IMG/VR virus record: IMGVR_UViG_3300035698_028977
Coordinates: 1 to 46,309 of that record
DNA length: 46,309 nt
Strand: one strand, 5' to 3'
From: a virus
Shown here piece after piece: positions 6,450-42,918 of this stretch. Both the position numbers and the translations under genes were made by a program. Numbering within the stretch: the stretch's first letter is position 1; each line of letters starts with the position of its first letter. The notes beneath the pieces were generated by a model. It saw nothing but the letters and a program-made list of their open reading frames with translations. It was not told the DNA's origin and made no database searches.

Positions 6450-8081
6450 TTATCGGCTAAGCCCTTTTTGGGCAATGGATGCCTCGACAGTCAGTAGGGT
6501 CGAAGACACCGAGACCGCCGCCCGGATGGCAGAAACGGCCACGGATGTTGGGTCTACCAGGTCATCCCGCACAACGATGATCTTGTCCTGGAGGACGTCA
6601 CAGGCGACCCACTTCCAGATGGCCGGGTCAACCCCGTCTTCCTCACGTTCCATCACCTCTTGGAGATCGTGGGCGACGACCGTGCCAGACTTCCCGGCGT
6701 TCTCGGCCAGGGCTGCTACCGGGCGTCGGAGTGCCTGGACCACTGCCTGCCATCCGGCCATGTAGTCGGGGTTCGGGAAGTCTGGCTTGCCCTTGTCGAT
6801 GATGAGACTGGCGGCCAGGTACGCAGAACCCCCACCGGGGACGACCCCCTCGCGGAGAGCTGCTTGTATGGATCCCAGCGCATCTTCGACCCGAGCCCTA
6901 CGTTCTTTCAATGCCGCTTCTGTCACCCCACCGACCTTGAAGATGGCGAGACCCCCGGACAGCTTAGCTAACCGTTCCTTGATGCGGTCGCTGTCATAAT
7001 CCGACGTGGAGTGCTTGTCTTCGGACCTGAGCCAGTCGATGCGTTTCTGGGTGGTGTCCTTGGCTTCGGGGTACGCCTGGAGCAAAGCTGAATTGGTCGT
7101 GATGGTGATCTTCCGCAGGGACCCAAACCAGTCGGGATTCCAAAACTGGGAGCTGTACCCGGCGGCCGGGTCACAGAAGTCGGCCCCGGAGATGGCGGCG
7201 ATGTCTTTGAGGGCCTCGACCTTTTGGGCACCGATACCTGGGGCGTTGAGGGCGCAGCACTTCATCGTGCCCTCCTTGTTGTTGACGACCATCGTCGTCA
7301 GAGCCTGGTTGCCGTAGCCCAAGGCGAAGAGGACGAGCTCATTTTTGGGCCACTGACTGGCCGTCTCCAAGAGCTCCCGGACATCCTCAAACTTCTTGAG
7401 TTCCATGTTGACGACGGCAACCAACGGTCCTTCGATGACCCGTTCCCCGGTGCTGTCCGTTATGAAAGCCGGGGACGCAGCGCCCTTGTCGAGCTCCATC
7501 CCTTCCTTGAATTCCAGGATGCACTCGATGCCTGGACTATCCTCGATAGACACGGTTCCGTCTTTGCCGACGGCCATACACGCCTTGGCCAGGCATCGGG
7601 CGATCTCATGGTCATGGTTGCTGGCAACCAATGCCACCTGTTCCACCTCCTGTTGGGTCTTAATGTCCGCACAGATGGAATATACGGCCTCGATTGCCGA
7701 CACGGAGGCGTCCCGCATCCCCCGGACAACCTGCTTCGGGTCCAGGCCACCCATGACGAGCTTGTGGCCTTCCCGGAGAATCTCGGCAGCGATGATGGCT
7801 GTCGTCGTGGTGCCATCACCGACTTCGTCGTTCACGGTCACGCACGCCTCTTTGATGATCTGGGCACCCTGATTCTGGATGGGGTCTTCGAGCGTGACTT
7901 CCCGGGCGACAGTCACGCCGTCCTTCGTCACTAGAAGGCCCCCAAAACGGTCGAGCATCGCTGTACGTCCCTTGGGGCCAAAAGTGACGGCAACGGCCTT
8001 GCAGACCATCTGAGCGCCTTCCAGGAGGCGTTTGCGGGCGTTGTCACCGATGGTGACGTCACGGGGGTTCGACTGATTCAT
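6450..8081 (-). CDS. groL: GroEL-type chaperonin subunit (60 kDa)
   Basis: 543 residues, close to the 548 of E. coli GroEL, and collinear through the whole family: TFGPKGRT near 33-40, the nucleotide site GDGTTTTAIIA with the Asp-Gly-Thr at 89-91, the hinge segment RARVEDAL holding the ATPase Asp equivalent to D398, and GVVPGGGSAYL. The usual Gly-Gly-Met tail is absent (the end is SIAQKGLSR). It forms ATP-driven folding rings with GroES; no GroES gene is in the window, so a host or distant phage co-chaperonin is needed. Phage GroEL is known in some large phages, where it helps fold phage proteins. Start supported by GAGAGG upstream. Confidence 0.96.
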   Translation of the reverse strand: MNQSNPRDVTIGDNARKRLLEGAQMVCKAVAVTFGPKGRTAMLDRFGGLLVTKDGVTVAREVTLEDPIQNQGAQIIKEACVTVNDEVGDGTTTTAIIAAEILREGHKLVMGGLDPKQVVRGMRDASVSAIEAVYSICADIKTQQEVEQVALVASNHDHEIARCLAKACMAVGKDGTVSIEDSPGIECILEFKEGMELDKGAASPAFITDSTGERVIEGPLVAVVNMELKKFEDVRELLETASQWPKNELVLFALGYGNQALTTMVVNNKEGTMKCCALNAPGIGAQKVEALKDIAAISGADFCDPAAGYSSQFWNPDWFGSLRKITITTNSALLQAYPEAKDTTQKRIDWLRSEDKHSTSDYDSDRIKERLAKLSGGLAIFKVGGVTEAALKERRARVEDALGSIQAALREGVVPGGGSAYLAASLIIDKGKPDFPNPDYMAGWQAVVQALRRPVAALAENAGKSGTVVAHDLQEVMEREEDGVDPAIWKWVACDVLQDKIIVVRDDLVDPTSVAVSAIRAAVSVSSTLLTVEASIAQKGLSR

Positions 8082-14381: not shown

Positions 14382-14751
14382 GGGGGTGAAACGGTTTCGA
14401 CGGGGACGGACGAAACCGAAAGTGCATGCCGGGAGATGTCTTGGACTCCCGTGACCAACCCAGGACAACCTTAAGTGCCAACGACAACGTAGCACTTCAG
14501 ATGGCGGCTTAGCGGCCCCATCCGTGGACCCAGATTTGCTCGGCGGTCTGGTGAAGCGTCATTTAGGCGAGCTGGTTCAGGCTGGAGTGTGGACCCCGTG
14601 TTTCTCTGCCTGAACGAGATTGAATTGGGGTAAGCTGCGGCGAGAGTTCGCCTGCTACACTCTGCTGCGGCGAGATTAAGAGCAAGCCAAGCATGTGGAC
14701 GACTTTCGGCAGAGGCGCCTCCGGACCTCGGTTCAACTCCGAGCACCTCCA
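14382..14751 (+). ncRNA. ssrA: tmRNA (transfer-messenger RNA)
   Basis: The 5' end GGGGGTGAAACGGTTTCGACGG is the tmRNA signature, and it pairs as an acceptor (GGGGGTG with CACCTCC) with the 3' end after a T-arm CTCGG-TTCAACT-CCGAG. Length 370 bases. The tag frame starts at GCC 14477 and ends at TAG 14510-14512, encoding ANDNVALQMAA, so the tag ends MAA rather than the common LAA. It rescues stalled ribosomes with SmpB, whose gene is not in the window. tmRNA genes occur in some large phages. Confidence 0.95.
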
Positions 14752-15170: not shown

Positions 15171-15253
15171 GGGGGTGTAGACCGTTATGGAGGCGGGCAG
15201 GGTTGTAGCCCCTGCGTCGATTGGCCCGGAGGGTTCGATTCCTTCCACCCCCA
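15171..15253 (+). tRNA. tRNA-Tyr(GTA)
   Basis: 83 bases with the long variable arm of bacterial tRNA-Tyr. Acceptor GGGGGTG/CACCCCC, anticodon arm CAGGG-TTGTAGC-CCCTG, T-loop TTCGATT, discriminator A. Confidence 0.88.
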
Positions 15254-15265
15254 CTACTTTCCCTT

Positions 15266-15348
15266 GGATGGCATGGCCAGCTGGTGCTGGCGTCGGGCCG
15301 TAACCCCCTTCCCGATTGGGCAGCAAGGTTCGATTCCTTGGTCATCCA
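15266..15348 (+). tRNA. tRNA-Tyr-like (GTA) with C at position 33
   Basis: 83 bases, class II. Acceptor GGATGGC/GTCATCC and T-arm CAAGG-TTCGATT-CCTTG are sound and the variable arm CCC-GATT-GGG is intact. The 17-base anticodon arm has only three pairs around loop CCGTAAC, with C instead of the near-universal T at position 33. If charged it would read Tyr codons; it may instead be a decayed or repurposed copy of the tRNA just upstream. Confidence 0.55.
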
Positions 15349-15360
15349 CAAATGCAGTTT

Positions 15361-15443
15361 GCCGGGGTGGTGGAACAGGTATATCACGGAGGACTTAAAA
15401 TCCTCTGCCTTCGGGCATGCGGGTTCGACTCCCGTCCCCGGCA
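15361..15443 (+). tRNA. tRNA-Leu(TAA)
   Basis: 83 bases. Acceptor GCCGGGG/CCCCGGC, anticodon arm GAGGA-CTTAAAA-TCCTC, long variable arm, T-arm GCGGG-TTCGACT-CCCGT. Confidence 0.92.
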
Positions 15444-15446
15444 CTT

Positions 15447-15529
15447 GCCAGGGTGGCGGAATGGGCAGACGCGCTGAGCTTAGGCCTCAGTGGGCTAGTC
15501 CCGTGCAGGTTCGATTCCTGTCCCTGGCA
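15447..15529 (+). tRNA. tRNA-Leu(TAG)
   Basis: 83 bases. Acceptor GCCAGGG/CCCTGGC, anticodon arm CTGAG-CTTAGGC-CTCAG, T-arm GCAGG-TTCGATT-CCTGT. Its 3' end is one base from the RNase P RNA. Confidence 0.92.
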
Positions 15530-15530
15530 C

Positions 15531-15739
15531 TTGGTCATCGAGGGTACGCACTACCCCGGCATATCGCCGGGATGTGAGGAAGCTCAGGACATCTCCGCTG
15601 AAGGTGGGAGGCTCACGCCGACTGCACCACCGAGGATGCAACTCGAACAGCCCTAGCGGGTGAGCGGCGCTATGATGGGCGGGTAGAGGCCACTAGATGA
15701 ATGTGCCCATAGAACAGAATCCTGGCTACGGGTGACCAA
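15531..15739 (+). ncRNA. rnpB: RNase P RNA (compact bacterial type A-like)
   Basis: Conserved regions are present in order: GAGGAAGCTCAGGAC (CR I), CTGCACCACCGAGGATGCAAC (CR II-like), TAGATGAATG (CR IV) and ACAGAATCCTGGCT (CR V). Helix P4 forms as AGC(U)CAGGA with TCCTGGCT and keeps the universal bulged U. P1 closes the molecule: TTGGTCATC (15531) pairs with GGTGACCAA (to 15739). Two 5' hairpins (GGGTA/TACCC, CCCGGC/GCCGGG) follow P1. About 209 bases, far shorter than the ~380 of E. coli. The ribozyme trims tRNA 5' ends; here it lies 1 base after tRNA-Leu(TAG) and 3 bases before tRNA-Leu(CAA), so it is probably cut from the same transcript. Confidence 0.85.
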
Positions 15740-15742
15740 CAT

Positions 15743-15826
15743 GCGAGCGTGGCGAAGCTGGCTTACGCGCCTGTCTCAAAAGCAGGTGTCCTTCGGGGCA
15801 TGGGGGTTCGAGTCCCCCCGCTCGCA
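15743..15826 (+). tRNA. tRNA-Leu(CAA)
   Basis: 84 bases. Acceptor GCGAGCG/CGCTCGC, anticodon arm CCTGT-CTCAAAA-GCAGG, long variable arm, T-arm GGGGG-TTCGAGT-CCCCC. It starts 3 bases after the RNase P RNA. Confidence 0.92.
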
Positions 15827-15829
15827 CAT

Positions 15830-15902
15830 GCCGACGAAGCTCAGATGGCAGAGCACCTGATTTGTACCCAGGAGGTTCCCGGTTCGATCCCGGCCGTCGG
15901 CT
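15830..15902 (+). tRNA. tRNA-Thr(TGT), first copy
   Basis: 73 bases. Acceptor GCCGACG/CGTCGGC, anticodon loop TTTGTAC with stem CCTGA/CCAGG (last pair A-C), T-arm CCCGG-TTCGATC-CCGGC. Confidence 0.88.
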
Positions 15903-15949
15903 CTCTGACCCCCTCTCAGCAAACGGAGGCCAATGTGAGACCTCGTGAC

Positions 15950-16156
15950 ATGGACGACTTCCGGCTAACCAGCGAGGAACGTCTCTTAGGAGACCGCCTG
16001 GAGGCTGTCCAAAATGAACGGCGGAGACGGGCTATGGCCTATGGCCTACCTCCAAGAGCACCTCAAAGAATACCTGCCGGAGTGGCTGGCAACCTGGTCA
16101 CGGCCTGGAATGCTCCTTCCGCCGCCCGACGATTATTCACCCTCAAGCCGATGTAG
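15950..16156 (+). CDS. Possible 68-residue protein gene between two tRNA-Thr genes
   Basis: The ATG at 15950 opens a frame whose first 32 residues look protein-like (MDDFRLTSEERLLGDRLEAV then QNERRRRAMAYG); the remainder is Pro/Ala-rich. Its stop TAG is formed by bases 8-10 of the following tRNA-Thr. Another frame beginning near 16015 also looks protein-like (YLQEHLKEYLPEWLATW), which would fit a frameshifted gene. No clear Shine-Dalgarno. Confidence 0.35.
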   Translation: MDDFRLTSEERLLGDRLEAVQNERRRRAMAYGLPPRAPQRIPAGVAGNLVTAWNAPSAARRLFTLKPM

Positions 16157-16219
16157 CTCAGTTGGAAGAGCACCGCCCTCGTAATGCGGATGTCGCGGGT
16201 TCGACTCCCACCGTCGGCT
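16147..16219 (+). tRNA. tRNA-Thr(CGT)
   Basis: 73 bases. Acceptor GCCGATG/CGTCGGC, anticodon loop CTCGTAA in stem CCGCC/TGCGG (one weak pair), T-arm GCGGG-TTCGACT-CCCAC. Confidence 0.86.
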
Positions 16220-16481
16220 TTTGTTATGCTACAGTGTCCTTGACGGGAGGGATCATGGAAGCTGTCCACAACGATGAAGACCTCACCCGGGCGCAGGAAG
16301 CCGATTGATGGCCAGCACTCGCCGCAAACAACGTTGGACAAACCGCAACCGGAAGCACAACAACCGGTGGTGGATGTGTTGTTCTGTCTGTCCCGTCTGT
16401 TATCGACGGGCTGGACTCCAGATCCCAAGCAAACCACTCCCTTCAGAACGCCGAGCACGGGTCTCTGAGAGGGAATTTCTC

Positions 16482-16554
16482 GCTGGTGTAGCTCAGCAGG
16501 CAGAGCAGGACTCTTGTAAAGTTCAAGTCGCAGGTTCGATTCCTGTCACCAGCT
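16482..16554 (+). tRNA. tRNA-Thr(TGT), second copy
   Basis: 73 bases. Acceptor GCTGGTG/CACCAGC, anticodon arm GGACT-CTTGTAA-AGTTC, T-arm GCAGG-TTCGATT-CCTGT. It is only distantly similar to the first TGT copy, so the two were probably acquired separately. Confidence 0.9.
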
Positions 16555-16561
16555 TTGTGTC

Positions 16562-16722
16562 GGGTTCCTATACGGACGCTGACCCATGGGGTTGCGCACA
16601 GCGCCAGGTGAGATCCCTGGGCCCGGCTCCAAACCCCTTCGGGTAGTCGGGATTCAGTTCCCGTCATAACGTTCAGGGAGAGGGGGATAGCAGGTAGAGT
16701 GGACGTCCCCTGTCAACTTCAG
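16562..16722 (+). ncRNA. Unassigned structured RNA D (domain-V-like strings)
   Basis: GGGGTT/AACCCC encloses GCGC-ACA-GCGC and CCAGG/CCTGG hairpins; a further hairpin CGGG-ATTCAGTT-CCCG follows. The string GGGTTGCGCACAGCGCCAGG (from 16588) is close to GGGTTGCGGACAGTGTCTGG of bacterial 23S rRNA domain V, and GGGGATAGCAGG (16683) recalls GGGGATAACAGG further along the same domain. No reading frame is convincing. The 3' flank CTGTCAACTTCAGCCGA is repeated at 16942. Confidence 0.35.
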
Positions 16723-16723
16723 C

Positions 16724-16930
16724 CGATGTAGCCCGAGACGGAGGTGCAAGAGTGAGCGTGTTACGGACAGTGTTGTATCTTCGATCCTGTGATGGATGGG
16801 GACCGAGATGTCCCCCGGCATCTGTGGTCCAAGGGTACATCCAAAAAAGAATCCGGGAACTGCGATCTGGGCGCCGACTCGCCTCTCAGGGGCGACAGGA
16901 TTGGGTTCCTGTCGTGATTCAAGGAGGGAA
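16724..16930 (+). ncRNA. Unassigned structured RNA E (relative of RNA D)
   Basis: It starts with the first 11 bases of a tRNA-Thr (GCCGATGTAGC) and then departs. GATGT..CCC can pair with GGG.ACATC around 16838, GGGGAC/GTCCCC and TCGCC/GGCGA form hairpins, and CGACAGG-ATTGGGTT-CCTGTCG mirrors the 8-base-loop hairpin of RNA D. GTTACGGACAGTGT (16760) matches GTTGCGGACAGTGT of 23S rRNA at 13 of 14. The 3' flank is shared with RNA D. Confidence 0.33.
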
Positions 16931-16953
16931 ATGAACGTACTCTGTCAACTTCA

Positions 16954-17025
16954 GCCGACGTGGCTCAGTGGTAGAGCACGGCCTTGGTAAGGCCGGGATC
17001 ACGGGTTCAAATCCCGTCGTCGGCT
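16954..17025 (+). tRNA. tRNA-Thr(GGT)
   Basis: 72 bases. Acceptor GCCGACG/CGTCGGC, anticodon arm CGGCC-TTGGTAA-GGCCG, T-arm ACGGG-TTCAAAT-CCCGT. Confidence 0.93.
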
Positions 17026-17044
17026 CTGGCTCTTCGGAGCCTTT

Positions 17045-17173
17045 GGGGGAGTGGCCAAAGAAAAGTGCATCTACTTTCACCCTGCCCCGGCATCTGGCCG
17101 GGAACTGCAAAGCAGATTCAGGAGTTTCTCATCACCGATGGGTATATAGAAACGTTCAATTCCAGGCTCCCCC
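17045..17173 (+). ncRNA. Unassigned structured RNA F closed by GGGGGAG/CTCCCCC
   Basis: A 7-base terminal helix like a tRNA acceptor encloses three hairpins: CCCGGC/GCCGGG, CTGC-AAA-GCAG and GTTTCT/AGAAAC containing CATC-ACC-GATG. The 5' end GGGGGAGTGGC resembles a tRNA start, but no T-arm or anticodon arm forms. It may be a tRNA-like RNA of unknown role. Confidence 0.35.
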
Positions 17174-17180
17174 GCTTCGT

Positions 17181-17213
17181 CCCTGTCGTCCAGCCAGGTC
17201 CAGGACGACAGGG
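17181..17213 (+). terminator. Perfect 11-base-pair hairpin before tRNA-Glu
   Basis: CCCTGTCGTCC (17181-17191) pairs fully with GGACGACAGGG (17203-17213) over an 11-base loop. There is only a short T-rich tail (GATTCTTCT), so a boundary or processing function is as likely as termination. Confidence 0.5.
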
Positions 17214-17222
17214 GATTCTTCT

Positions 17223-17298
17223 GGCCCCGTAGGCTAATTGGTTTAGGCCGCCACACTCTCACTGTGGAGATTTGCCGGTTCGAGTCCGGTCGGGGCTA
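17223..17298 (+). tRNA. tRNA-Glu(CTC)
   Basis: 76 bases. Acceptor GGCCCCG/CGGGGCT, anticodon arm CCACA-CTCTCAC-TGTGG, T-arm GCCGG-TTCGAGT-CCGGT, discriminator A. Confidence 0.9.
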
Positions 17299-17306
17299 TT
17301 TCAGAT

Positions 17307-17367
17307 GCCTGCCAATGGCAGGCGGGGATCAACGGGTCAGGCCCGGAAGGGAGCAGCCCAGATCCCC
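17307..17367 (+). ncRNA. ffs: Miniature SRP RNA (4.5S domain IV)
   Basis: GGTCAGGCCCGGAAGGGAGC followed by AGCC is the signal-recognition-particle domain IV core: a GGAA tetraloop on CCC/GGG and the symmetric CAG/AGCA internal loop that binds Ffh. GGGGATC (17324) and GATCCCC (17361) close it as a 44-base hairpin. A second hairpin GCCTGCC-AAT-GGCAGGC lies directly 5'. The unit is much shorter than the 114-base E. coli 4.5S RNA. It lies 8 bases after tRNA-Glu and 5 bases before tRNA-Arg, so it is probably released by tRNA processing. It could bind host Ffh as a substitute or a decoy. Confidence 0.8.
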
Positions 17368-17372
17368 ACCTT

Positions 17373-17445
17373 GCGCCCGTAGCTTAATGGATAGAGCGCT
17401 GCTCTCCGGAAGCAGAGGCTCCGAGTTCGAATCTCGGCGGGCGTG
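17373..17445 (+). tRNA. tRNA-Arg(CCG)
   Basis: 73 bases. Acceptor GCGCCCG/CGGGCGT, anticodon arm CTGCT-CTCCGGA-AGCAG, T-arm CCGAG-TTCGAAT-CTCGG, discriminator G. Confidence 0.92.
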
Positions 17446-17498
17446 CAAAATTTGGGCTCAGCCCTTCCCCCACGGAGTAGACAAGGAGAGGGGGTACG

Positions 17499-24913: not shown

Positions 24914-25263
24914 GCCACCTCCTTGAAGATGCTGGCGGTTGGTCCCATCGAAAGAATGAGATGGTGGATGTCCCGACGAGACAGACTGCGCTCGACCACC
25001 TTCCAGCCGAAGCTTTCCCAACGCCCCTCCGTGGGGACCAGGATGTGGCCATCTCCGGAGGCACATACCACGTCTCGAACCGAATGGCCCCAATCTGCGG
25101 GTTCTCCGATTCCTGTTAAAGCCCACGCTTTGTCATATCGGAGCATGTCCACCGGGAATTCCCCGCTCCCCCGTACGATGAAGTAACGGGGGCGTTTGGT
25201 ATGGGAGCCCCGAGGGGTGTAGGGGTCAACCTCGTTGCCGATCTGGTCAATCCACTTGCTCAT
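24910..25263 (-). CDS. Unknown 117-residue protein
   Basis: Overlaps both neighbours by ATGA. Beta-rich in the first half (PRYFIVRGSGEFPVDMLRYD), ending with a helix. Coupled directly to the CobT-like gene, so it may act with that protein, but no family is recognised. Confidence 0.65.
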   Translation of the reverse strand: MSKWIDQIGNEVDPYTPRGSHTKRPRYFIVRGSGEFPVDMLRYDKAWALTGIGEPADWGHSVRDVVCASGDGHILVPTEGRWESFGWKVVERSLSRRDIHHLILSMGPTASIFKEVA

Positions 25264-27923
25264 CCCGTTTTCCTCATCCGGCGTCCCCGTTTGGGCGCCC
25301 GAATGTCCACCAGCTCATTGAGCTTCGCCAATAAAAGTCTGGGGAAGTCGGCCATCTTGGTCGTGTATACGTTATCCGGGAACAAGGTCTGGACATACTG
25401 AGCCCCATACCCCATCCCCACGCCCACGATGTGGATACCAGCCTGTTTGGCCAACCGGATCTGTCGGTTGATGACCTCGGTGTGCCCTCCGTTCGGGCAG
25501 CCATCTGTCACCACGAACAGGAACCGGTGGGCTTCGTCCCGGTAGTTCAAGGCATCGAGGGCGTACTGAATGCCATCGGACATGGGCGTGCCCCCATTGG
25601 CCCGGGTGTTGGCGAACCGCCAGCGTATCGACTTGAACCGTTCGTGGAACATCTTGAAGATGTCGTACTGCACACCATGCCGACGGTGGTACGTGCCCTT
25701 GTCCTCGGCTGAAACCGGAGCCTCCGCCTGCCAACCGTTGCGGAAACCCAGGACCATTGTCGGAAAATCCAACCCGTCGAACGGCTCCGTCAGGGCCGTC
25801 ATGATCCGGGTGGCGTCCTTTCGGAGCGTGTCCATCGACCCCGATTCATCCAGCACAACCGCTACGGCCATGCTCATGTCCACCTGGATGTCCGGCTGGA
25901 AGTAGGCTCTGGTCGGGAAATCTTGGGCGTTCAGGGCAGCCTTGGAGTCCACCAGGAAACGAGACGACAGCCCCCGACCCTTCGGAACACCATGGACCGT
26001 ATGACTCATCTCGATCGATTTGATGACCGTTCGTAACCGGGCTCGCAGGAAGGCGGTCTCTCGCTTGACCGACCTGATAATTCGGTCGGCGGCTTCACCG
26101 TCGTGAGCCTTCCCTTTGGCTGACGGCTGAACGAGGTGCGCCTCATCCATATCGGGGTCATAAGGGTTCCAGGGAGCCTCACCTTCCCCGATGTCCGAAT
26201 TGTCCTTTTCCCGAACGGCATCGAAGGCATCCTCCAGAGCGGAGTTGCCGTCTTTCAAACCGAGGTCTTTCCCGTCGGCGGCCTGGTCCAGGGCATCCTC
26301 GGCTACATCGGTCCAATCATCCCCAGGGTGGTCCTTCTTGTCGTGGTGGTGTCCCCCGGCACTTCCCGGACATCCCCCACTGTCGGAGCCACCGTCGGTT
26401 TCATCGCCCTGCTTATTCCCGCCGTCGCTTGGGTCTCCCGTGCCCCCGTCGTTTTCGTCGTCACCCTTATCGGCACCCTTGCCGCCGGAGTCACTGTCTT
26501 TGTCTTTCCCATCGTCTTTGGCACCCTTGCCGCTGGAGTCACTGTCGCCGTCCTTGTCTTTCCCGTCGTCTTTGGCACCCTTACCGCCGGAGTCACTGTC
26601 GCCGTCGTCACCTTCCTTACCCGTGTCGCCACCACCGGCTCCGTCGTTTTCGTCGTCACCCTTATCGGCACCCTTACCGCCGGAGCCTCCGGTTTGGTTG
26701 CTATCGTCCTGGCCATCGGCCTTGCTGTCACCCGACTGATCGTCGCCATCGGATTCGTCGCCGTCACTGCCGGCATCGCCAGCAGGACTGTCGAAATCCA
26801 TGTCATCGAACCCGTCGAAGTCCGGACCGTCCTGGCCACTTCCTTGGCCAGGTTGCTGTTGCTGTTTCGGCTCAACCTCCACTTCCTCCTGGAAGCCACA
26901 CACGGTGCAGGTCGCGATACCTACACCCTTGACCTTGCCGCCATTGCCATCCGATTTCGGGCGGACCTTGATCTTGTTGGCGGGGGCACTACATGCCGGG
27001 CACTCCTGATTCCCGTCTCCGGTCTGACCCTGTTGGGCCTGTTCATCTTCGTCGGCGCCCTTGCCCAGTTCGGCCAATTCGGCGATAACGTCCATCGCTA
27101 CTCGGAGGCACCCAAGATCATCGTCCCGGGACATCCCGATGGTTTCCCGAAGCATCGGGGCCAACGGTCCGTTGAGGACCATCTCGACTGCCTTGGGGTT
27201 GTCCTTTTGGTACTGGGCCATGACGAACCGTTGAGTCTCGGTGTTGTAACCCAGCCCCACGTCCCTAAAGACCCCGATGATGACCGAGAGTGCCCCAGAT
27301 TTGCCACCGTGAGCACGCACGTCCAAGGCGCCCTGCTGCTCCTGCAACAGGATGAAATCCTGGAGGTCACAGAGCTTGACGTACACACCGTCGTAGTCCT
27401 CTCGACCCCGGCGCTCGATTCGGATATCCTCAATCACGTTGCTCCACTGTTGGAGCGCCCCGTAATACTTTGACCAATCCTTGACCTTGGCCCACCGGGG
27501 AAGCACCAAGGAAGAAACTTCATCGGCCCGCAATATGCGCCTGCACGAGTACTTGGTGTGGAACGCTTCGTGATACGCCCCACCCGTGAGCCCCAGTGCC
27601 GTTCGAAGCGGGAGCTTGTCAGGCGTATTGGCGATCACGATTTGTGCCTTCGGCGCCCGGTGAGTATTAGCCGACCGGATCCATTGCTCTAGGTCCACCC
27701 CGGTCGGAACACATCCGGGGTTGGCCCCGGCCCACACGCACAGGGCCTTTGTCAGGAACCGGGCCGTCCACCGGTCTGCGTTGAAGAACTGGCTTCCTCG
27801 ACTACAGACCGCAGGCGCGTGCGCACCCAGGATACCGATTACAGACGCCTTGTGCGTCCGGCGGTACTTGTCCCCTCTGATAATGGGGACGGCCTCTTTG
27901 GATGTCGTCTGTGCTGTCTGCAT
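25260..27923 (-). CDS. CobT-like protein: HEXXH N-terminal domain, acidic repeat linker, VWA domain
   Basis: 887 residues. The N-terminal domain carries YHEAFHTKYS (His118-Glu119-x-x-His122), a zincin-like motif. Two CxxC pairs (CPAC, CTVC) may hold zinc near 320-350. Residues about 365-560 are a Gly/Asp/Lys low-complexity linker with repeats of GGKGAKDDGKDKD type. The C-terminal VWA domain has the metal-site motifs DESGSM, TRANGGTPMSDG and VVTDG. CobT partners the AAA+ protein CobS in cobalt chelation and has many relatives that remodel other targets; the divergent CobS-like gene fits this pair. AGGA lies about 12 bases before the start. Confidence 0.85.
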   Translation of the reverse strand: MQTAQTTSKEAVPIIRGDKYRRTHKASVIGILGAHAPAVCSRGSQFFNADRWTARFLTKALCVWAGANPGCVPTGVDLEQWIRSANTHRAPKAQIVIANTPDKLPLRTALGLTGGAYHEAFHTKYSCRRILRADEVSSLVLPRWAKVKDWSKYYGALQQWSNVIEDIRIERRGREDYDGVYVKLCDLQDFILLQEQQGALDVRAHGGKSGALSVIIGVFRDVGLGYNTETQRFVMAQYQKDNPKAVEMVLNGPLAPMLRETIGMSRDDDLGCLRVAMDVIAELAELGKGADEDEQAQQGQTGDGNQECPACSAPANKIKVRPKSDGNGGKVKGVGIATCTVCGFQEEVEVEPKQQQQPGQGSGQDGPDFDGFDDMDFDSPAGDAGSDGDESDGDDQSGDSKADGQDDSNQTGGSGGKGADKGDDENDGAGGGDTGKEGDDGDSDSGGKGAKDDGKDKDGDSDSSGKGAKDDGKDKDSDSGGKGADKGDDENDGGTGDPSDGGNKQGDETDGGSDSGGCPGSAGGHHHDKKDHPGDDWTDVAEDALDQAADGKDLGLKDGNSALEDAFDAVREKDNSDIGEGEAPWNPYDPDMDEAHLVQPSAKGKAHDGEAADRIIRSVKRETAFLRARLRTVIKSIEMSHTVHGVPKGRGLSSRFLVDSKAALNAQDFPTRAYFQPDIQVDMSMAVAVVLDESGSMDTLRKDATRIMTALTEPFDGLDFPTMVLGFRNGWQAEAPVSAEDKGTYHRRHGVQYDIFKMFHERFKSIRWRFANTRANGGTPMSDGIQYALDALNYRDEAHRFLFVVTDGCPNGGHTEVINRQIRLAKQAGIHIVGVGMGYGAQYVQTLFPDNVYTTKMADFPRLLLAKLNELVDIRAPKRGRRMRKTG

Positions 27924-32130: not shown

Positions 32131-33531
32131 ATGTCTTTCAAATACCATGTCATCCAGGAATCATTTCGGCGCTTCGTGCTCCCCAAGGTGGGGGACATGA
32201 AATGCCCGGCGTTAGCGTTTCTGACCCCCGAGCTCTTCGAGGGGACCAACGAGGGTCTCTGGAAACAGACGGCCCAGTCGGCTTCCTACGAAAGCGTGAC
32301 CGACGTGTACCTGATGCCCGACACCCACCTGGGTTTCGGGGTCCCCATTGGGGGCGTTGTCCTGACCGAAAACACCCTCATTCAGGCCGGGAGCGGGTAC
32401 GATGTTTCTTGCGGAATGCTCCTCATGGAGACCGACCTGCACGCATCCGACGTCGTGGACCGCAAGAAGCGCCAGGCGTGGATCCAGGAGGTCGAAGCCC
32501 GGGTCGCCACAGGGCTCGGTTCGCACCAGCCCCCTCGGATGGTCCCCCGGAGCTACAACACGGTCCGGGAGATTTTCCGGACCGGCGCCACGTCCCTGGG
32601 GACGAAGCCCGAGCTGTGTGAACGGCTCTGCATCCCGATTGACGAGAACCACTTCAAAGAGGGTCTGATCGAGAAGGCTACGAAGAAGGCGGCCCCCCAG
32701 CTCGGGTCTCTCGGGGGCGGAAACCACTTCATCGCCATGCACATCGACCCGACGGACTCGTCCGTTTGGTTGATCATCCACTGTGGGTCTCGGGGCTATG
32801 GCTGGCAGACAGCCAACCACTTCTACTACGAAGCGGCCCGGTTGCGGGGCCTGCGGCCCAAGCGCCGGGAGGAAGCGTGGCTGAGAGCCGATGAGCGGAT
32901 GGGCCTGGAGTATTGGGCGCACCACAACACGGCGGCCAACTACGCCATCGCCAACCGACACGTCATCGCCCAGGAGCTCCGGGAGGCCACAGAGGTCGTG
33001 TTCGGCGAGACGGCCCGGACCTTCTACGAAATCAGCCACAACCTGATCCAGCGGGAGACCGTGGACAAGGATGGGACCCAGAGGTTCGTCCACCGCAAGG
33101 GGGCCACCCGGGCCTTCCCGGCCGGGCATCCTGACCTGGTGGGGACGAAGTGGTCCGAGACCGGGCACCCCTGCATCATCCCCGGCTCGATGCTCCATGG
33201 GTCCGCCCTCCTTTTCCCAGCCGAGAAGGCTTGGGAGAGTGGCTGCTCCGTCAACCACGGGGCCGGGCGCCTGATGGGCTGTGGGGACGCCAAGCGGAGC
33301 CTGCGGGCTATCCAGGACGAGATCGATGAGGAGATGCGCACGACCAAGGTCGAGTGCACCGACGGGACCGTAATCGTGGGCGTCGAGACGAACCAGGCCC
33401 AAACCCCTCTGGATGAGAGCGGCTACGCCTACAAGAATCTCGATACGGTGCTCGGCGTCCTGGAAGCCGAAGGCATCGCCAAAATCGCCCGCCGGATGTA
33501 CCCGGTGGCCAACATTGCGGGGGTGCGCTGA
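32131..33531 (+). CDS. rtcB: RtcB RNA ligase
   Basis: 466 residues covering the whole family: MPDTHLGFGVPIGG, the metal-site Asp-Cys in GYDVSCGM, GSLGGGNHF, IHCGSRG, the guanylylated His in VNHGAGRLMG, and YKNLD near the end. It joins 2',3'-cyclic phosphate (or 3'-phosphate) ends to 5'-OH ends using GTP and Mn. In phages it is thought to repair tRNAs cut by host defence nucleases; the 25 tRNAs here fit this. It could also act in splicing of split or intron-bearing tRNAs. GGAGG precedes the ATG by 5 bases. The next gene starts at its stop (TGATG). Confidence 0.96.
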   Translation: MSFKYHVIQESFRRFVLPKVGDMKCPALAFLTPELFEGTNEGLWKQTAQSASYESVTDVYLMPDTHLGFGVPIGGVVLTENTLIQAGSGYDVSCGMLLMETDLHASDVVDRKKRQAWIQEVEARVATGLGSHQPPRMVPRSYNTVREIFRTGATSLGTKPELCERLCIPIDENHFKEGLIEKATKKAAPQLGSLGGGNHFIAMHIDPTDSSVWLIIHCGSRGYGWQTANHFYYEAARLRGLRPKRREEAWLRADERMGLEYWAHHNTAANYAIANRHVIAQELREATEVVFGETARTFYEISHNLIQRETVDKDGTQRFVHRKGATRAFPAGHPDLVGTKWSETGHPCIIPGSMLHGSALLFPAEKAWESGCSVNHGAGRLMGCGDAKRSLRAIQDEIDEEMRTTKVECTDGTVIVGVETNQAQTPLDESGYAYKNLDTVLGVLEAEGIAKIARRMYPVANIAGVR

Positions 33532-41227: not shown

Positions 41228-42847
41228 CTAACCAGATTCCAACCGGGTGTTCCAATACAGGTAATCTCGCCAGGCCTGGGGCATATCCTCCCGCCAGGCC
41301 AAATCCGGGAAGGGGGTCCCAGGCAACGAGCGGGGACGCACGGGCGCCAGACGGAGCCGCATGTTTGCCTGCTCGGGCGTCCGGTTGCCCTTGCGCTGGT
41401 TGCAGCTCACACAGCAGACGACGATGTTCTCCCACTTGGTCGTGCCACCCTGGTTCCGGGGCCTCACGTGGTCGAAGGTGAACTCCGACTGAGAGACCTT
41501 GGTCCCGCAATACTGGCAGTTGTGAACCGCTAACCCGTTGGCAATGTAGCTGTGACTATCTGCCACCTCAATATTGAACACCTCAACCGACGTGGGCGCC
41601 GGGTTTACGGATAGAACCTTACGGAAAACAAAGTTCTCGTCGCCGTAGATGGTCTTTCTATCGGGGGTATCCTCCACCCCCACCACGTCCTTCATGAACC
41701 GAGAGTAGTTTCTGGCATTGAGGACAAGCCCCCAAGCAACCTTCCGGTGCGGGCGGCGCACGACCTGAACAGTTGGGTAAATACCCAACCCCCACAACAT
41801 GGACTGGGCTTGGAAAACTAAATCGTCCGCGACTAGGTATAGAGATATCCTCCTCAAATCATGGTTGAAATTGCCATCCCCCAAGAACAACCCCCGCAGG
41901 TAATCCGGGTAATAGGAGCCCAGTAGTTCCCATGGGGTTCTTTTCTCTTGCTTGCTCCCGCAGAAGTGTCGAAAAATCTCGGATAGCCCTTTGGAGCACA
42001 CCCTTACGACACACCTGTTGTTTTTGGGGTCGGTGTTCAATGAAGGGTGGAACCCTAAGCGGGTGTAGAAACGGACTACATCTGCCGCTAGGGTATCCTG
42101 TTCCTTCAAGTGGAAAGTGAACGTAACCCTCTGTCCCCCAGTGCAGTTTCCTTCTGCGGCAAACAAGCCCAAGATGTAAGCGTGTTCCGCAGACATTTCC
42201 AAACGGGTGGGCACCCCTACCTCATGCGGTCTGCGGGACGTATAGACCCGACCGTCCCTGACACGCATCCATCTCCCACGGGAAAGGAACTCCGCAGCAT
42301 CAAAATCCAGATAAACAGATTTGTCGTATCTCACATTCCTTGGGAACATGAGATACGTTGGAAACTCCTGGATGGGAACCCATTTTCCCCCCGGGGACAA
42401 GAAAGGGTGATCCGGTGTGACTTGTGTCTCTATGGCGGATCCCCGGTGGCGAAGAACTAGGACAGGGGACCTCCGGCTCCCCGTCGCCACCACTGTCTGG
42501 GGAACCCCAAAAGCGTCAATCACCCGGTCACCCGCTTGGATACGCGAGATATCCTGCTGTGAACCGTTCGCCATCAGTACCCGCGTCCCTGCTGAGAAAC
42601 AAACACCCTTGTCCCGGAGCCAAACGTTCTTCCGGTTGAACTTCACCCCACGTCGGAACAAGCCGACAACCCGGTGCAGAAATCGGACGACCGATGGCAT
42701 CGGGAACACCTGAGACGGAGATCGGATGACCCTGTCTTCGTATTCCTCCACGACCGTAGCCCGGCCGCTCACGACCCACGTGATGGCCTTTTTCCAGGAC
42801 ACCCTGTTGATAGGCATAAATCCGTCTGTCAACACCAGCGTATCCAT
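41228..42847 (-). CDS. HNH endonuclease interrupted by a 361-residue intein
   Basis: 539 residues, of which 178 are the host protein. ATG at 42847 has GGAGGG about 6 bases upstream. The host protein begins [20 protein letters not shown]; after splicing, WLRDKGV joins [20 protein letters not shown]...[15 protein letters not shown], a complete HNH/McrA-type nuclease site with its CxxC zinc pairs. The intein sits immediately before the first zinc Cys, which serves as the +1 Cys. The host protein is a typical phage HNH nuclease, possibly itself mobile. Confidence 0.9.
41519..42601 (-). mobile_element. Intein with LAGLIDADG-type homing endonuclease
   Basis: Codons 83-443 of the HNH gene. It starts [20 protein letters not shown] (block A, catalytic Cys1) and ends [16 protein letters not shown] before Cys+1 (blocks F and G). 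Block B includes TPDHPFLS. The middle carries two DOD motifs, [11 protein letters not shown] and [13 protein letters not shown], so the homing nuclease is probably active. All residues needed for self-splicing are visible. Confidence 0.92.
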
Positions 42848-42868
42848 TTTACATCCCTCCGGTGCCCT

Positions 42869-42874
42869 ATAATA
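42869..42874 (-). promoter_or_regulatory. Possible -10 box for the intein-bearing HNH gene
   Basis: TATTAT within TTATTATAGG reads toward the HNH gene about 22 bases before its start codon. No clear -35 was found at the usual distance. Confidence 0.3.
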
Positions 42875-42918
42875 ACATCGGGTTCTCTCTTTTTTGACAG
42901 TGGACAGGAACATTTCAG

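Follow-up and report, generated by a model that had tools for sequence, protein, structure and literature searches.

RNase P RNA is the catalytic subunit of the enzyme that removes the 5' leader from precursor tRNAs. RNase P ranks among the most ancient ribozymes, and it is generally regarded as an enzyme of cells (or organelles). Among its reduced forms is a minimal archaeal RNA called type P or type T. This type P RNA was described from Pyrobaculum (PMC4919922). Type-A catalytic domains deprived of the S-domain still cleave, less efficiently, with P18 dispensable in that context, and the catalytic domain of the Pyrococcus RNA (P. furiosus), which lacks P18, is active without protein; an interaction between P8 and P18 has also been described (PMC5839562). 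Phages are known to encode RNAs of translation in tRNA/tmRNA arrays, and an Rfam survey of circular megaphages of ~0.5 Mb detected only tRNAs and a tmRNA (PMC8172020), a result to be expected if a compact RNase P RNA escapes Rfam. Searches of the open-access literature yielded no description of an RNase P RNA encoded by a phage, most subscription journals and bioRxiv falling outside the scope of the search, and this absence is weak evidence for novelty.

The window, the whole stretch of DNA analysed here, is the complete IMG/VR virus record IMGVR_UViG_3300035698_028977 (46,309 nt). ARAGORN found 25 tRNAs and one tmRNA in it. The tmRNA (14382-14751, plus strand, also found by Rfam) lies upstream of a plus-strand array at 15171-17446 with the order Tyr, Tyr, Leu, Leu, RNase P RNA, Leu, Thr, Thr, Thr, Thr, Glu, Arg. 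Within this array, a 209-nt compact type-A-like RNase P RNA gene (15531-15739, plus strand) is preceded at a distance of 1 nt by tRNA-Leu(UAG) (15447-15529, plus strand) and followed after 3 nt by tRNA-Leu(CAA) (15743-15826, plus strand), both detected by ARAGORN and Rfam and both without an encoded CCA. ARAGORN itself gave 15447-15530 and 15743-15827 for the two genes; its tRNA-Leu(UAG) call is one base too long, the discriminator being the A at 15529, and with the first base of tRNA-Leu(CAA) at 15743 the gap measures 213 nt. A CCA is encoded in 0 of the window's tRNAs, and no promoter-like site was seen in or around the array. A megablast search with 11 kb of the window gave no match to named phages, so the phage is left unplaced. 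The window also encodes a divergent GroEL (6450-8081, minus strand), an RtcB RNA ligase (32131-33531, plus strand) and a VWA/CobT-like protein (25260-27923, minus strand), the GroEL and CobT-like proteins having distant matches only. A 561-aa ORF (41228-42913, minus strand) combines Hint/intein, LAGLIDADG and HNH domains.

At gathering thresholds, Rfam reported only tRNAs and the tmRNA in the window, and the RF00010 threshold was missed. A relaxed scan, which keeps the best clan member only, placed the full RNaseP_arch model (RF00373, positions 1-288) exactly on 15531-15739 with 28.1 bits (E = 2.5e-6 for 501 nt) against a family threshold of 84 bits, and the minimal (type P/T) archaeal model had no reported window match in the Rfam scans. 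A covariance model, R1, built from 18 phage homologues with the window excluded, matched at 137.9 bits (E about 1e-40), its sole match there. The single-sequence folding energy of the RNA was uninformative (z = -1.3). Together with the P1, P2 and P4 helices, the R1 and RF00373 matches confirm 15531-15739 as an RNase P RNA gene.

The helices of this RNA, all on the plus strand, carry names that we assigned from general knowledge of bacterial RNase P RNA. P1 pairs the first bases of the molecule, UUGGUCAUC (15531-15539), with the last, GGUGACCAA (15731-15739), and so closes it. The RNase P-defining pseudoknot consists of P2, in which GGGUA (15542-15546) pairs with UGCCC (15704-15708), and P4, in which AGC[U]CAGGA (15581-15589; together with GAGGAAG of CR I it spans 15576-15589) forms eight of eight pairs with UCCUGGCU (15720-15727) around a bulged U at 15584. 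Model R1 sets the 5' strand of P2 within the loop of P3 (CGGCAuauCGC), a placement that we rejected; GGGUA-CGC (15542-15549) was taken as the P2 site because the flank CGCACUACCC...GAUGUGAGGAA matches the relatives L065, L066 and L080. The 6-bp P3 hairpin CCCGGC/GCCGGG (15555-15571) was read from the sequence and also appears in the predicted fold. Likewise read from the sequence, with covariation on an alignment of relatives (A2), were P5 CAUC/GAUG (15590-15593/15635-15638), P7 GGUGG/CCACC (15603-15607/15627-15631) and a mini-hairpin GGC/GCC (15610-15612/15617-15619) that stands in place of P8-P14. CR III/J5-15, GCAACUCGAACA (GCAAC...GAACAG, 15638-15649), was located on two alignments, A1 and A2. 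It is followed by P15 GCCC/GGGC (15650-15680, counted across relatives), which encloses P17 UAGCG/CGCUA; the loop of P17 holds the P6 3' strand AGCGG (15663-15667), which pairs back to CCGCU (15595-15599) to form the P6 pseudoknot and is partly supported on A2. CR IV, AGAUGAAUG (15695-15703), and CR V, ACAGAA (15714-15719), complete the core.

P18 is missing from the window, where GGGUAG runs via GGCCACU directly into AGAUGAAUG, and so is the S-domain with P8-P14 and CR II; the compact relatives lack these parts as well. That P18 and P8 were lost together makes sense in view of the described P8/P18 interaction (PMC5839562). The mini-hairpin that replaces the S-domain (A2 columns 62-91; window 15603-15631) has a conserved motif of its own, GGGAG...UCGUU..ACC, which may serve as a minimal point of contact with the tRNA elbow.

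The original prediction, that two tRNA-Leu genes flank a compact RNase P RNA carried by a phage, is borne out by the R1 and RF00373 matches and by the covariation of P2 and P4. Its length of about 209 nt and its spacings of 1 and 3 nt were exact, and P1 and the bulged P4 that it described are present. The covariance-model match that it asked for is significant, with RF00373 in the relaxed scan (below the gathering score) and with R1, and both helices of the P2/P4 pseudoknot form and covary. Its assignments of CR I, IV and V stand, but the block that it named CR II is CR III/J5-15, since CR II belongs to a part of the S-domain that this RNA lacks.

The window's RNA shares P1-P7, P15, P17, the P2/P4 and P6 pseudoknots, CR I, III, IV and V and the P4 bulged U with bacterial class A (RF00010). 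It differs from class A in lacking P18 and P8-P14, in measuring 209 nt against a 367-position model, in scoring below threshold and in lying inside a phage tRNA array; some other phage relatives are full-length RF00010 members above the Rfam threshold. All core features tested mark it as an RNase P RNA, but the missed class threshold and the absence of P18 and the S-domain set it apart from standard class A. Archaeal RNase P RNA (RF00373), its best Rfam match, likewise has no P18; however, the window scores far below 84 bits, and the known carriers are phages of bacteria. As in the minimal Pyrobaculum RNA, nearly the whole specificity domain is gone, leaving a natural catalytic-domain-only form. 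Unlike that RNA, an archaeal one with archaeal protein partners, the phage form retains a bacterial-type P6 and P15/P17 and a conserved P7 mini-hairpin, and its named carriers are bacteriophages, not archaea; the shared reduction looks convergent. In common with known phage tRNA/tmRNA arrays, the window holds both kinds of translation RNA, but it differs from them in having a processing ribozyme inside the array, which is unreported in the papers found.

Searches of IMG/VR recovered 62 stretches with a CR IV-CR V pattern and 106 with a P18-less pattern. Model R1 matched ~100 of the IMG/VR contigs scanned (training members and near-duplicates counted), with exactly one match per record in 17 of 17 carrier records. 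A strict pattern for the compact form matched 23 of the RNase P candidates, the window included. The same pattern had one match in 84,980 cellular genomes, which was spurious; it should be noted that the pattern is strict and that other cellular compact forms are possible. This sole cellular match, in Bradyrhizobium (L161), was discarded as a chance hit, with no CR I upstream and no tRNA. Cultured carriers include the Microbacterium phages Zooman, Big4, A3Wally and one more, as well as Stenotrophomonas phage DLP_6; homologues in sequenced phage isolates sit between tRNA genes, and the RNase P RNA gene has no annotation in the Zooman and DLP_6 records. The megaphages LR756502 (642 kb) and LR756511 (595 kb) are carriers too and are, among named phages, the closest to the window in the P3/CR I flank. 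The phage loci are graded from full-length class A RNAs above the Rfam threshold (L018, L004, L040, L015, L041) to compact forms below it (L005, L063-L066, L069 and others). One further locus, L020, is probably a host gene and was set aside; it matches RF00010 at full length with 316 bits and has no tRNA in its vicinity. The window's RNA, which the original prediction had called unusual, is no isolated case but a member of a widespread phage family, whose gene was without annotation in all records inspected for it.

Several relatives depart from the common architecture. In L008, L017 and L059, the usual 5' strands of P1/P2 are seemingly missing, and the CR IV-proximal strand pairs with the 3' end of the RNA (GACGAGTT/AACTCGTC in L059), an apparently rearranged topology. 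A differently reduced phage RNase P RNA at L037:10599-10795 seemingly keeps P8/P9-like hairpins and CR II and is missing CR III and P15. On the minus strand of L080 (~20-840), a close relative of the window's RNA is split between CR III and CR IV by an insert of ~650 nt, in which Rfam found no intron and which contains a 210-aa ORF resembling a GIY-YIG homing endonuclease. Two large phage contigs with the compact RNA, L081 (494 kb) and L109 (371 kb), have a tRNA-Pyl(CUA) called by ARAGORN ~5.4 kb downstream, a possible amber suppressor.

The fold is supported by covariation across these relatives. A first MAFFT alignment (A1) put the window's P3 wrongly, so fixed sequence anchors were used for counting P2, P4, P5 and P15 over 58 non-redundant sequences, L020 among them. 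In P4, 462 of 464 cells were paired and single positions showed up to five pair types; with the strands slid by 1-3, 19-44% of cells paired. P2 was paired in 97% of cells (257/265, 53 sequences; slid 35-42%), P5 in 166 of 200 (slid 26-31%) and P15 in 160 of 200 (slid 20-52%), and up to six pair types per position occurred across the anchor-counted helices. When CR I/CR V pairs were collected without requiring P4, 67 were found, with all eight P4 pairs in 64 and seven in 2. On the second alignment (A2; 18 sequences without the window, trimmed at P2), from which model R1 was built, both sides had changed in 27 of the 33 pairs of the structure, and the covariation score was 0.678, against 0.187 (sd 0.018) for shuffled and 0.078-0.158 for slid pairs. 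P6 was paired in 65% of cells on A2, a low value partly because the alignment fits one subgroup. CR I, the J5/15 GCAA, CR IV, CR V and the bulged U of P4 are invariant or nearly so. Every core helix shows compensatory changes, and these extend over dozens of divergent lineages, a sign of continued selection on the fold.

Most carriers also share the placement of the gene near tRNA genes. When L020 is excluded from these layout counts, 19 of the 49 tRNA-bearing loci have a tRNA that begins no more than 30 nt 3' of the P4 end, against 1.8 expected, and the downstream tRNA in such loci usually begins 1-8 nt after P1. At eight loci, the window included, tRNAs adjoin both ends of the RNase P RNA within 0-12 nt. 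In L004 and L065, two loci where no tRNA adjoins the gene, P1 is unusually long, at 25 bp and ~17 bp (with a single mismatch), respectively, as though a long P1 protected ends that are set elsewhere by tRNA processing.

We infer, with a probability of roughly 0.8, that the window encodes a type-A-core RNase P RNA that is carried in a tRNA-array transcript, excised by tRNA processing and used, usually with host RnpA, in maturing the phage's tRNAs. The gene would be transcribed as part of the tRNA array; 3' processing of tRNA-Leu(UAG) would generate the ribozyme's 5' end, and its 3' end would arise when RNase P cuts at the start of tRNA-Leu(CAA). With both ends set by tRNA maturation, the gene would be excised by the very pathway that it serves. 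From the layout it is reasonable to expect processing of the flanking tRNAs in cis and a partnership with host RnpA, both raised by the original prediction, as well as ribozyme ends made by tRNA processing, which it raised for the 5' end. RNase P capacity would thereby be raised during infection for the many phage tRNAs and the tmRNA, the latter being likely a further substrate. A ribozyme without an S-domain should bind its substrates more weakly unless RnpA or co-transcription compensates, but the residual cleavage by type-A catalytic domains deprived of it (PMC5839562) speaks for the proposed role.

The predicted partner protein would be borrowed from the host in most carriers. RnpA (PF00825) was not found in the window, and of the 76 carrier records searched, many of them fragmentary, only one had it. 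The exception is the megaphage LR756502, in which an ORF at L163:5124-5492 (LR756502.1, about 525,123-525,491) matches PF00825 with E = 3.4e-14, has the RNR motif and is similar to solved RnpA structures; the same record contains a terminase. LR756502 has both the compact RNA and RnpA, so this megaphage encodes both RNase P subunits. A 37%-identical relative of its RnpA occurs in the viral contig L166. The near-general absence of an RnpA gene from carriers, together with the almost complete loss of the substrate-binding S-domain, would also fit an RNA with an RNase P-like fold that cuts no tRNA and acts as a decoy or regulator, titrating host RnpA or disturbing host RNase P. We consider this unlikely: a decoy would not need in full the catalytic core, whose CR I, J5/15 GCAA, CR IV, CR V and bulged U are near-invariant, the position within tRNA transcripts fits processing, and one megaphage encodes an RnpA of its own.

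Less probable still is that a host rnpB gene was captured and is now a nonfunctional remnant in decay. The reduced size of the RNA, the graded phage series from full-length class A to compact forms and the L080 relative split by an endonuclease gene could be taken in favour of this, but the compensatory changes in all core helices across dozens of divergent lineages, and the conservation of the reduced architecture itself, speak against it. A chance resemblance or host DNA misplaced in a viral record, to which the lack of an Rfam match at curated thresholds might point, is dismissed, since an independent model gives an E value of 1e-40, phage isolates sequenced in full carry homologues, and the P18-less signature has no real match in 84,980 cellular genomes.

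Beyond the reading of the window as a tRNA-maturing ribozyme, we give about even odds to a broader proposal, that these RNAs form a phage-specific class of RNase P RNA (type-A core, no P18, a mini-hairpin for the S-domain) that would be self-excised from tRNA transcripts and that, together with phage RnpA in at least one 642-kb megaphage, would make up a complete viral RNase P. If so, some phages carry an autonomous tRNA-maturation system. The natural catalytic-domain-only form recurs in tRNA-rich phages and is invisible at Rfam thresholds. It also serves as a warning that surveys of phage RNA genes have overlooked an entire class. It offers ready-made minimal RNase P RNAs for testing the roles of the specificity domain and the protein, and tractable isolates are available, such as phage Zooman in M. 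foliorum. Our findings suggest that phages bring their own tRNA-processing ribozyme and that large phages control tRNA maturation besides tRNA supply.
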